Assembly: GCF_009674675.1 (NCBI RefSeq)
Contig: NZ_WKJC01000001.1
Location: forward strand, 248,001-312,000
Reading direction: 5' to 3'
Length of the DNA stretch: 64,000 nt
From: Kangiella sp. HZ709
GTDB lineage: Bacteria; Pseudomonadota; Gammaproteobacteria; Enterobacterales; Kangiellaceae
The translations under genes and the position numbers were made by a program. The first letter of the stretch is position 1. Each line of letters begins with the position of its first letter. The notes under the pieces were generated by a model. The model had not been told where the DNA came from. It made no database searches and saw only the letters and a program-made list of their open reading frames with translations. This document shows, piece by piece, positions 4,775 through 16,410 of this stretch.

Positions 4775-5887
4775 TTATAAAGATACACCTAGTTTTTCTA
4801 GAGTTGCGATGGTCAATTGACCAGAAGCTAAACCATTATCTAGTTGGTATTTGTTAACTGCGCTCATAGTGCGAGAACCTAGTACACCATCAACAGAACC
4901 AGCATCATAACCTTCGCCATTTAACGCTCTTTGTAAGCGAGAAATCAAACCTGGAGTAGTGTTTGTTTCACAAAGGATTGGTCTCCACTCTAAGAACGAG
5001 TCAGTAACCAATTTACGTTTTGAAACTGTTGTATACTCTTCTGGGATAGCAATACGATTTTCTGTTGCTGGAGTAACTAATTTACGTACATTAACTGTAT
5101 CGTATTTTGCCGGAATAACAACTTCACGAGTAGTAGCAGCAGTATCGATAACTGTACGAGTTACTGTTTTGAATTTAGCAGGGATTACATCAGATACAGT
5201 TGTTGCAGGACTTACTACAACGCGTGTGCTAATTGTTCTGTATTCTGCAGGAACTTCTACTAAACACATGATTTCACCAGTTGAAGCATCTACCTTTTCG
5301 ATAGGGCCACGGCCTTTTTTCCATGTAGTATAAGCAGGTTTAACTAGAATTTGCTCAGTTTCAGTACCGTATTGAGCAGGAACTTCACGTAGGATAGTTT
5401 TTTCTGGCTCTACCATAATCTCTTCAGTAACTGTTCTATAAGTTGCTGGGATTACTTCTAAGCGAGTAGATTCTTCCTGTACTAATACAGTTTCTTCAAC
5501 CATTTCATACTGAGCAGGAGTAACTTCAACACGCTCAGAAGCTGCTTTAGCTAATACTTGCTCAGTTGAATTTTCGTATACAGCTGGTACTAATACGCGG
5601 GAGTAACATTCACCTGGCTGTGCATTTGGTGGTAATAAGTCACCAGAAGCAGTGTAAGCGGTTGCTGTAGAACCGTTAGAGCTTTGTGCGGCTGCTAACT
5701 CACGACGTAAGCGATCTGCTTCTGCAGCACGCGTAGCTAATCGTGCTTTTTCAGCGTTAACGCGGTCTAATTCTGCTTGTAAACTTGCAGTGTCGCCAGA
5801 TGAGACTGTTGTTGATTGTTGTGACGCACAGCCACCTAAGATAGTTAGAGTGCTAGCAATTGCTATTGCTAATGGAAGTTTTTTCAT
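4775..5887 (-). CDS. Repeat-rich peptidoglycan-binding lipoprotein
   Basis: This is a 370-residue outer-envelope protein. The N-terminus is a lipoprotein signal ending LGGC (Cys20), followed by a short heptad-like coiled coil (about 33-70). Residues about 95-310 hold roughly eight degenerate units of about 23 residues with the pattern V-x-PA-x-Y-x-T-V followed by a V-rich strand. The last 60 residues form a PG_binding_1 domain (LQRALNGEGYDAGSVDGVLG, then AVNKYQLDNGL), which binds cell-wall peptidoglycan. The architecture suggests a periplasmic spacer linking the outer membrane to the wall. The ribosome site GAAGGAG lies just upstream of ATG. No enzymatic motif is present. Confidence 0.85.
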   Translation of the reverse strand: MKKLPLAIAIASTLTILGGCASQQSTTVSSGDTASLQAELDRVNAEKARLATRAAEADRLRRELAAAQSSNGSTATAYTASGDLLPPNAQPGECYSRVLVPAVYENSTEQVLAKAASERVEVTPAQYEMVEETVLVQEESTRLEVIPATYRTVTEEIMVEPEKTILREVPAQYGTETEQILVKPAYTTWKKGRGPIEKVDASTGEIMCLVEVPAEYRTISTRVVVSPATTVSDVIPAKFKTVTRTVIDTAATTREVVIPAKYDTVNVRKLVTPATENRIAIPEEYTTVSKRKLVTDSFLEWRPILCETNTTPGLISRLQRALNGEGYDAGSVDGVLGSRTMSAVNKYQLDNGLASGQLTIATLEKLGVSL

Positions 5888-6143
5888 GGTTGTTCTCCTT
5901 CAGATTTTCCATGTTCAGTAATTAAGCCCATAAAATAGTACCAGCTCCATCTTAGAACGGAATAGCTCAAATGTAAAAGATTGGCAAAATGTGAAGAAAT
6001 ATCAAAAAGTTAACTAGAATGTAAAAAAGTGAATATTCTCCGAAAATTGACCTATCTGACTTGAATTTTCGAATGAAATAAGTGAGTATTTCCATACAGG
6101 GGCTGGACACGGCTTAAGATAAACATCAAATGAGGTATAAAAA

Positions 6144-6521: not shown

Positions 6522-7037
6522 CTAATTTTGGTTGCTACTTTTACTGGTTAAATAGTCCATAATGGCAAAGAGTAATCCTGAAATCACAAATACCGAATGT
6601 ATTGATAGCTTTGCCCAAATCACGCTCAAATCATCTCCCGATGCTAGCTGCATATAGCTTCTTAACAAATCAATTGCTGAAATAGCTACGATAGAGCTTA
6701 TCAGCTTCACCTTTAAGGTTGAAAATCCTACTTTACCCATCCAACCTGGACGGTCTTCATGTTCTGCCACATCTATTTTAGAGACAAAGCTTTCGTAACC
6801 ACTAAAAATTATAATAATTAATAAGTTGGCTAAGAGTGTCATATCCACTAAAGCAAGAATACCCAAAATAGTATTCATTTCATCTAACTCAGAAAAATGA
6901 GTTGCCAAATGCCATAGCTCTTTGCCAAAAGTCGTTAAGAGAATGATGATCCCAAATATCAAGCCAACGAAGAAAGGCGCTAATAACCAGCGACTGACAA
7001 ATATCCCTTTTTCAAATGTATTTTCGATTTTTTTCAT
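6522..7037 (-). CDS. UPF0114/YqhA family membrane protein
   Basis: This 171-residue protein has four predicted transmembrane segments (about 17-37, 55-78, 105-125, 140-162). The block SGYESFVSKID, followed by WMGKVGFSTLKVKL, is characteristic of UPF0114 (E. coli YqhA). The family is of unknown function. It starts 30 bases after the 3' end of tRNA-Arg on the same strand, with no terminator visible between them, so read-through from the tRNA promoter is possible. The ribosome site is weak. Confidence 0.85.
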   Translation of the reverse strand: MKKIENTFEKGIFVSRWLLAPFFVGLIFGIIILLTTFGKELWHLATHFSELDEMNTILGILALVDMTLLANLLIIIIFSGYESFVSKIDVAEHEDRPGWMGKVGFSTLKVKLISSIVAISAIDLLRSYMQLASGDDLSVIWAKLSIHSVFVISGLLFAIMDYLTSKSSNQN

Positions 7038-9681: not shown

Positions 9682-9775
9682 AAAAAAGGCTTCCAGCGTT
9701 CAACTGGAAGCCCTTAACACTCTCAAAATGAGAAGGAGGTATTTTGAGAATTGAGCCTGTAATGGCAAGCACCCA
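9682..9775 (-). ncRNA. Candidate trans-acting small RNA with anti-Shine-Dalgarno loop
   Basis: The 319-base gap between cmoA and the S9 peptidase gene holds no ORF but has the anatomy of a small RNA on the minus strand. A 9-bp perfect stem (9721-9729 with 9741-9749) exposes the 11-nt loop ACCUCCUUCUC, which is complementary to a ribosome binding site. It is followed by a 9-bp terminator stem (9688-9696 with 9704-9712) and a run of six U. A weaker hairpin lies at the 5' end (TTGCC...GGC). The hairpin on the plus strand has no T tail, so the minus strand is favoured. A promoter candidate sits at 9782-9810. No known family is recognised. Confidence 0.55.
9688..9712 (-). terminator. Rho-independent terminator of the candidate small RNA
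   Basis: GGCTTCCAG pairs with CTGGAAGCC around a 7-nt loop and is followed on the minus strand by TTTTTTA. No protein gene on this strand ends upstream of it, so it must end some other transcript. Confidence 0.8.
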
Positions 9776-9781
9776 AGCTCA

Positions 9782-9810
9782 CTTATACTTTAACAAATAT
9801 GTGATTGCAG
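9782..9810 (-). promoter_or_regulatory. Candidate promoter of the small RNA
   Basis: Minus-strand CTGCAA (9805-9810), 17-base spacer, TATAAG (9782-9787; five of six consensus bases). Predicted transcription start is near 9775. Confidence 0.4.
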
Positions 9811-9942
9811 GCTATTCAGTAAATGTAACAAACAGTTACAGGTTACACTTATTGGAGCTGTTCAATATTCGATGAATGGACTGGAAGTTAGTGGTTAATT
9901 TTATTATTCTAATCTTCCTTATTTGCGATATTGAGAAGATTA

Positions 9943-14613: not shown

Positions 14614-16389
14614 TTAGTTTAAGTCAAATTCCATAGTAACTTCCAAGCCATTTTTAGTGAAGCTTGTTTTATCTGTATAACGGCCTTTAACGTTTTTAAA
14701 CATCTCGTTAAATACACGTTGGAATTCTTCAGCATCAGCATCTTGATTTGGATCCATCGCCATTGCTTGATTAATCATTCCAAAGTATCTGCCCATATCA
14801 TAATTAACGCTGAACAAGCCGTTGTAATCGATAGAAGAATTAGTATCTAAATTAGCGGCCATTGCATTAGCTTTATCGCCAAAAGAAAGAACTAAGTCAT
14901 GCCCACGCAATGAACCGTTAACTTCAACAGGTAAAGGTAATGGTAATGCTTTTGGCGCAGCACCTTCTTCAAGTTCGATGCCACCTAACATAGGTTGGAA
15001 TTGACCGGCTAATTGAACTAAAGCCATTGGGTCATCAGCACTTAAAGTCATGATTAAGCTTACTGAATCAGCTGCCGCCATAGGATTGTTTTGCGCTTGC
15101 TCCATAGCACTTACGTCCATATCGACTAAACCAAAGCCAAAGCCTTTAATGCCGCCTAACATGCCGCTAACCATGCCTAATTGCATAACAGGGTTGTTGC
15201 CTTTTAATGCGTTTTGCATGTCTGCTAAGCTAGAGCAGTTATACGGGTCTTTAGTTAAGCGCTTCCAAACATCGGTTAAGACACCAGTCATTTCTGCCAT
15301 ATTGAAGCCCATGCCCATGCTGAATAACATATCTTTATTAGCCATAGCTGGAGATAAGTGACCATGTAACTTTTGTAGAGAGTCTAGTAAGCCTGCATTG
15401 CTACCTTCTACAACCATTTTATAGCTAGCTGAGTTAGCGTCAAAGTTAGTGTAGCCTGCAGAAATAGTAGGCCAATTGCCTACGAAGGCGGTAAGTTCTG
15501 ATTGACACTCAGGTGTTCTGTATTCAGCTAAAACTGATACGCCAGGACCATTGTTAACATTGTAAGCAACAAGAAGATCATCTAGCATGCCGCCAAAATG
15601 ATTGGCTCTAGGGTTAGTAATACCTTCAACGATGCCTAAGTTATCCATTAAGAATAACTGGTGGCCTTCATAACCAAACTTATTCACTAATCCAGCTAAA
15701 CGAGGCGAGTCAGAGAAAGATTTCGCTGGTTTTTCGATACCTAATGCTAATTTCAAATCTTTCGCATCGTCTAACAGAGTATTTAAAGTCATAACCGCTT
15801 GGTTGTTATGAGTAGAAAGTACTAGAGTTACAGGAACGTCTTCACCAAAAGAATATTCTCTATATTCAAAACCATCTAAAGATCCAACTTTAGCAGTGAT
15901 TTGATTTTCTTTTTCAATAGTTTCTACCATTGTTTGGAAAGTGTTAGAGCCATCTAAAGAAAAGCGGAAGACTGGTAAAGCACCGACTGTATAGATAGCA
16001 CCATCAGTTTCACTTGGAACACCCATAGTCTTAGGATAGTTGCTAGAAGCAGCACCCATCATCTTTTTGACGAAACCAAATACGAACTTTGCACCGTCAG
16101 GTGCGTCACCCATGTCAAACTCTTCTTTATTGAAAAGTTCGCCCATGACTTCAAAATTAAGACCAAAGTTACGGCTGAAGGCCATTAACTTGTCATAATC
16201 CATCGCTTCAAGATTACCACCAAATAAAATAGTATCGGCAGGGACATATTCCATAACTTGGCTAGATGAACCGGAAAGTTTGTTAGTAATAGATGAAACA
16301 ATATCTCCATCGGAAGATTTGTTTTTGTATAGATAAACTCCAACTGCAACAGCAATCAAAGCTAGTGCAATGATAATAAACTTTTTCAT
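14614..16389 (-). CDS. Membrane-anchored protein of unknown function
   Basis: This 591-residue protein is not recognised. Residues about 4-21 form one hydrophobic anchor followed by a Ser-rich linker, so the bulk is predicted to be periplasmic. The body begins EYVPADTILFGGNLEAMD and holds many short hydrophobic strands and several Met/Gly-rich segments (for instance MLGGIKGFGFGLVDMD). Motif patterns such as VPADT at the N-terminus occur in DUF3352-like proteins, but I cannot confirm membership. The ribosome site GAGAAGGA is eight bases complementary to the loop of the candidate small RNA at 9682-9775. A 15-bp palindrome lies at 16411-16425, upstream of the start. Confidence 0.8.
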   Translation of the reverse strand: MKKFIIIALALIAVAVGVYLYKNKSSDGDIVSSITNKLSGSSSQVMEYVPADTILFGGNLEAMDYDKLMAFSRNFGLNFEVMGELFNKEEFDMGDAPDGAKFVFGFVKKMMGAASSNYPKTMGVPSETDGAIYTVGALPVFRFSLDGSNTFQTMVETIEKENQITAKVGSLDGFEYREYSFGEDVPVTLVLSTHNNQAVMTLNTLLDDAKDLKLALGIEKPAKSFSDSPRLAGLVNKFGYEGHQLFLMDNLGIVEGITNPRANHFGGMLDDLLVAYNVNNGPGVSVLAEYRTPECQSELTAFVGNWPTISAGYTNFDANSASYKMVVEGSNAGLLDSLQKLHGHLSPAMANKDMLFSMGMGFNMAEMTGVLTDVWKRLTKDPYNCSSLADMQNALKGNNPVMQLGMVSGMLGGIKGFGFGLVDMDVSAMEQAQNNPMAAADSVSLIMTLSADDPMALVQLAGQFQPMLGGIELEEGAAPKALPLPLPVEVNGSLRGHDLVLSFGDKANAMAANLDTNSSIDYNGLFSVNYDMGRYFGMINQAMAMDPNQDADAEEFQRVFNEMFKNVKGRYTDKTSFTKNGLEVTMEFDLN

Positions 16390-16410
16390 GTTTCCTTCTC
16401 TTGTGTTGTG

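Follow-up and report, generated by a model that had tools for sequence, protein, structure and literature searches.

Background

The alpha-r14/NfeR1 RNA of Sinorhizobium meliloti has three hairpins, each of which carries the motif CCUCCUCCC and whose stems differ in sequence, and it pairs where translation starts on its targets, one of which is the regulator gene ntrB (PMC10746234). In enterobacteria the small RNA (sRNA) CyaR, whose transcription is activated by cAMP, pairs with the Shine-Dalgarno (SD) site of ompX, an envelope gene, and so keeps the ribosome from binding (PMC11795201). The sRNAs OmrA and OmrB of Enterobacterales are activated by OmpR and act on envelope genes and on ompR-envZ near the SD site or the start codon (PMC12692685). 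Here we describe a locus in a stretch of 64,000 nucleotides from a Kangiella genome (the window) that probably encodes a free-standing, OmpR-activated and trans-acting sRNA with an anti-SD loop, found throughout the genus. An original prediction, made from the letters of the window, had placed at this locus a small RNA with an exposed anti-SD loop that represses the translation of envelope genes. A literature search recovered no paper on a Kangiella sRNA.

A minus-strand RNA gene with three stem-loops

Reading of the minus strand together with folding confirmed the two structural elements that had been proposed, namely a hairpin with a perfect 9-bp stem and a terminator with six U residues. 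The core of this hairpin (SL2; 9749-9721) reads TCTCAAAATACCTCCTTCTCATTTTGAGA and consists of the 9-bp stem and the 11-nt loop ACCUCCUUCUC. The terminator spans 9715-9685 with its U-run at 9687-9682, and is the sole terminator in the region, where 0.1 would be expected. It was also correctly said to serve no protein gene, as there is none immediately upstream of it on the minus strand. RNAfold assigns the segment 9683-9775 a free energy of -34.6 kcal/mol (z = -4.0), and none of 200 shuffled sequences was equally stable. The length of the RNA, which had been put at roughly 90 nt, is probably nearer to 100 nt, and a third hairpin at the 5' side (SL1; 9781-9752) had been missed; given the conserved -10 element, the 5' end of the RNA probably lies near 9781-9779 (Table 1).

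Table 1. Positions of the sRNA gene, its parts, its promoter elements and its candidate target sites (window coordinates unless a contig label is given)
Feature	Position	Strand	Basis
sRNA gene, about 100 nt, three stem-loops	9682-9781	minus	20/20 Kangiella genomes by DNA and covariance model R1
SL1, 5' hairpin	9752-9781	minus	fold predicted in every species
SL2, near-invariant hairpin	9719-9751; core 9749-9721	minus	core identity 0.98
Anti-SD loop ACCUCCUUCUC	9730-9740	minus	20-species alignment
SL3, rho-independent terminator, six U	9682-9715	minus	terminator of differing sequence after SL2 in every species
-10 element TAAAGT	9787-9792	minus	TAAAGT in 18/20 species, TACAGT in 2/20
Tandem TGTTACA box TGTAACTGTTTGTTACA, probable OmpR site	9824-9840	minus	sole match in own genome, conserved spacing, likeness to published boxes
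Candidate target: 591-aa gene (14614-16389), ribosome site GAGAAGGA	16393-16400	minus	
Weak candidate target: lipoprotein gene (4775-5887), ribosome site GAAGGAG	5895-5901	minus	
Extended protease complement, M4 metalloprotease start region, candidate target	L153:1027-1054 (G014); L154:985-1009 (G001)		

Conservation and distribution

The sRNA gene is present as a single copy in all 20 Kangiella genomes, which we grouped by the form that the RNA and its flanking sequences take, and not by a tree, into clade A (G000, G004, G011 and G015-G017, including the window), clade B (G003, G006, G008, G012, G013 and G019) and clade C (the remaining eight). A covariance model (R1) built from clades B and C only recovers the six clade-A copies, which lay outside its training set, with E-values of 1.8e-5 to 0.013. 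Among the 18 species with a 29-nt SL2 core, the core is 98% identical in an ungapped comparison, against about 30% in the flanks, a contrast that exceeds chance; the core of the other two species has one extra A. Within the loop CUCCUUCUC is invariant, and the base preceding it is C, U or A in the 20-species alignment. The SL2 stem likewise never varies, with 11 of 11 pairs of this helix being invariant. An SL1 and a terminator accompany the core in every copy, the terminator differing in sequence, and in the 14 species of clades B and C both sides have changed in 7 of the 11 SL1 pairs, with 96% of the alignment cells pairing. Over the whole structure 97.4% of the cells are paired, versus 34-44% in slid controls, and the covariation score is 0.321 versus 0.144 after shuffling. 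The loop of SL1 retains UACCCC in nearly all of these 14 species (L007-L020), and may act as a second seed.

Compensatory change in the stems had been put forward as a test of the original prediction. Such change is evident in SL1 and in part in the terminator, but the test is inapplicable to the anti-SD hairpin itself because its stem never varies. There is no conserved ORF on either strand of the gene, which together with the covariation in SL1 is the picture presented by a conserved structured noncoding RNA. The comparative evidence strongly supports a small-RNA gene whose loop would be able to pair with ribosome sites, much as had been predicted.

The covariance search in related genomes that had been suggested with the prediction found the sRNA in every Kangiella genome and gave no convincing match in 20 further Kangiellaceae genomes. 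Among 84,980 species the exact core was encountered in no other genus save for one match in a Gammaproteobacteria MAG (L062), which was rejected as a coincidence as it sits within a LysR-like coding sequence. Two weak matches to the model in another family of the order (G264 and G298) were also set aside as chance, because they are devoid of the anti-SD loop and their neighbors are unrelated. No Rfam family matches at the gathering threshold, and at E<=5 there are only sub-threshold chance matches. A search for relatives in phages and plasmids yielded none that was meaningful. With neither an Rfam match nor a paper on a Kangiella sRNA recovered, the sRNA is a new, previously unreported family of a known kind.

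Promoter and presumed control by OmpR

The -10 element of the proposed promoter is conserved across the genus. The -35 element that was paired with it at a 17-base spacing did not survive scrutiny: a consensus scan lists no good -35 at 17 nt upstream of TAAAGT, and what is found upstream is instead a tandem TGTTACA box. The sequence TGTTACAWTT occurs 38-39 nt before the -10 element in 19 of the 20 species, the twentieth having CGTTACAATT, and this spacing stays fixed while the gap between the -10 element and the hairpin ranges from 37 to 53. The tandem form TGTWACNNNYTGTTACA has a single match in the whole of its own genome, at the sRNA promoter, and 12 of its 19 matches across the genus are sRNA promoters. 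The box resembles OmpR boxes published for Acidithiobacillus caldus, such as GTTACAACTTGTTACATAAG (PMC9861516), as well as the RisA motif GTTACA (PMC11019879). An OmpR ortholog (NCBIfam equivalog NF007005), the DNA-binding domain of which matches 1odd, is encoded in the genome, and orthologs are found in all 18 near-complete Kangiella genomes. Most likely, the sRNA is activated by an OmpR-type response regulator through the tandem box, with OmpR itself as the presumed activator. The same tandem box is also seen before a gene for a TIGR00645-like membrane protein in three clade-C genomes (L287, L289 and L290), and was not seen before the homolog of this gene in the window (6522-7037).

Candidate targets

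The first target that had been proposed, the gene for a 591-residue envelope protein, stands up to comparison. It is present in all 20 genomes. The 12 species of clades A and B each have GAGAAGGA at its ribosome site, and AGAAGGA is shared there by all 20 species, so that in the eight clade-C species the complement amounts to 7 nt and not the full 8-mer. Among 21 ortholog families drawn from syntenic stretches of six genomes, a small null set in which ribosome sites drift freely, this gene is the outlier, with a mean perfect complement of 7.83 nt and the next best family at 5.83. The predicted pairing of the sRNA with this site amounts to -10.4 kcal/mol including the opening of the site, and surpasses all 200 shuffles (the best being -9.5). 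The caveat that accompanied the prediction was apt, as many ribosome sites will match a short anti-SD loop, and the MetC-like and DUF2884 regions of the window score at least as well in pairing; furthermore, a strong SD site can be conserved for the sake of expression alone. The linked 591-aa gene is a likely target in all clades. Its product is a membrane-anchored protein with a single N-terminal helix, for which we found no Pfam or NCBIfam family, and a fold search yielded no confident relative, the best match being a weak one to TP0453 (E 1.5e-3, TM 0.23/0.44).

The other target on the original list, a lipoprotein gene, fared less well: GAAGGAG is indeed present at its ribosome site, which is compatible with pairing, but this is a strong SD of a generic type, variable from species to species, and only 7 of the 20 genomes yielded the gene. 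The best match within a clade is to a gene that was invisible from the window, coding for a secreted M4 metalloprotease (PF01447), which clades B and C contain and which was not detected in clade A. In all six clade-C species that possess it, the protease site GAGAAGGAGA is the complement of the whole variant loop UCUCCUUCUC. In just two of them, G014 and G001, the complement continues into the 3' arm of the stem to give a perfect match of 17-19 nt, which covers the SD site of the protease; the closest relatives of G014 show 1-2 mismatches in this extension that are uncompensated by the invariant RNA. The predicted cofold gains for the clade-C proteases are -16.0, -11.8, -11.9, -21.2, -15.6 and -4.3 kcal/mol, as opposed to about 0 in clade B. 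The metalloprotease is a likely target in clade C.

Of the genomes in which ompR was read, 5 of 6 in clade A and 4 of 5 in clade B have AGAAGGA in its start region, and those of clade C lack it; in four clade-A genomes (L295, L296, L298 and L305) its ribosome site is GAGAAGGA. Hence, ompR is a possible target in clades A and B, which would amount to feedback on the presumed activator in the manner of OmrA/B. Genome-wide targets were sought by pattern searches, and among those matches that were classified no other noncoding start region was so widely kept. In the genome of the window the 8-mer stands before at least four real genes, and the exact 9-mer GAGAAGGAG was not found before any ATG. 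An nqrB-like gene was considered and rejected, since a TAA stop directly follows its GAGAAGGA, which apparently forms the end of the coding sequence of the upstream gene, and this confounds its conservation.

Alternative explanations

The sRNA gene is situated between a divergent gene for an S9 peptidase and cmoA-cmoB, and in clade A, including the window, cmoA follows it directly on the same strand, as would be expected of a cis-acting leader or attenuator of cmoA-cmoB. However, in 14 of the 20 species, comprising clades B and C, a convergent gene for a type II chorismate mutase (with PF01817 in the two examples tested), which is absent at this position in clade A, intervenes between the sRNA terminator and cmoA, and there the RNA is equally conserved; a leader function is therefore very unlikely. 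As befits a free-standing sRNA gene, it has a promoter of its own with conserved box and -10 element, a terminator in 20 of 20 genomes, and separation from cmoA in those 14 species; the genome also codes for Hfq (hfq). It is more improbable still that the element marks the start of a small plus-strand gene, with GAGAAGGAGG as its ribosome site and a TTG or ATG just after. All species do show a perfect SD followed by TTG at 5 nt, but the ensuing frames are unconserved, ending after 43, 24, 16, 10, 21, 15, 5, 98, 5 and so on codons, and it is the minus strand that carries the conserved promoter and terminator. The sense-strand frames of the sRNA gene are likewise unconserved.

A more substantial alternative retains the same sRNA and mechanism, and replaces OmpR with another response regulator of the OmpR/PhoB type. 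The box was assigned by resemblance, and in most genomes the search with the OmpR protein returned 22-32 candidates at first look, which makes the presence of other OmpR-type response regulators likely. Against this stand the closeness of the box to published OmpR boxes and the occurrence of the ortholog in every near-complete genome, and we regard a different driver as possible but doubtful. Alternatively, the sRNA might be real, with SL2 kept chiefly as an element that binds a protein or relates to the ribosome, acting as a recognition site or a sponge. This could account for a stem that is as invariant as the loop, unlike that of SL1, and draws further on the similarity of ACCUCCUU to the 3' end of 16S rRNA. 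Yet the base before CUCCUUCUC varies freely, breaking the likeness to 16S rRNA, the 591-aa gene has kept the complement, and the protease site of clade C is matched to the 3' arm as well as to the loop, which would by itself explain the invariant stem. We accordingly consider this explanation rather improbable.

A proposed mechanism

The reading that we favor remains that of an OmpR-activated, anti-SD, trans-acting sRNA. The sequences themselves show the gene, its structure, the conservation of its promoter and the complementarity kept at the 591-aa gene, and from these we infer transcription of the gene, binding of OmpR to its promoter, pairing in the cell and repression. An OmpR-type response regulator would activate the sRNA via the tandem TGTTACA box, and the RNA would present CUCCUUCUC in the loop of SL2, which would pair with SD sites of the GAGAAGGA type and thereby block binding of the 30S subunit. 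On the best targets the 3' arm of the stem may join in the pairing, as is suggested by the 17-19 nt complement in the protease mRNA of clade C; a seed confined to the loop would otherwise leave the invariance of the stem difficult to account for, recognition by a protein being the main rival explanation. Given the complementarity of the loop to ribosome-binding sites, it is most likely that a few genes for envelope and secreted proteins would be switched off under the osmotic regulator OmpR.

More tentatively, SL2 might be a two-stage antisense device, the loop of which docks on any strong GAGAAGGA site before its stem opens and the 3' arm lengthens the duplex to 17-19 bp on privileged targets, namely the metalloprotease of clade C. 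Such a device would explain why the sequence of the stem, and not merely its pairing, is frozen across the genus while the clades swap targets. The frozen stem offers a clear test of whether the stem of a hairpin can form part of an antisense seed.

Comparison with known small RNAs

The Kangiella sRNA resembles alpha-r14/NfeR1 in exposing an ultraconserved anti-SD motif in a hairpin loop and in its predicted pairing at start regions. However, where that RNA has three hairpins each with its motif, the Kangiella sRNA has a single hairpin with CUCCUUCUC on an invariant stem, and it comes from a different class of bacteria. With CyaR it shares the predicted pairing with the SD site of an envelope gene, but differs in its structure and promoter. 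The likeness to OmrA/OmrB encompasses the presumed control by OmpR, the candidate envelope targets and the predicted pairing near the SD site. Unlike the 5' seed of OmrA/OmrB, the seed of the Kangiella RNA would be the loop of an internal hairpin, which houses CUCCUUCUC, and its 5' end varies; the feedback on ompR is in Kangiella a suggested one, in clades A and B. The Rfam models of CyaR and OmrA/OmrB gave no match at the gathering threshold or at E<=5. In the absence of such matches, and with the defining motif or the position of the seed being different, we place the Kangiella sRNA outside alpha-r14, CyaR and OmrA/B. If our proposal is true, Kangiella has a circuit leading from OmpR to an anti-SD sRNA like that of OmrA/B but built on an unrelated RNA, which suggests that it arose independently.
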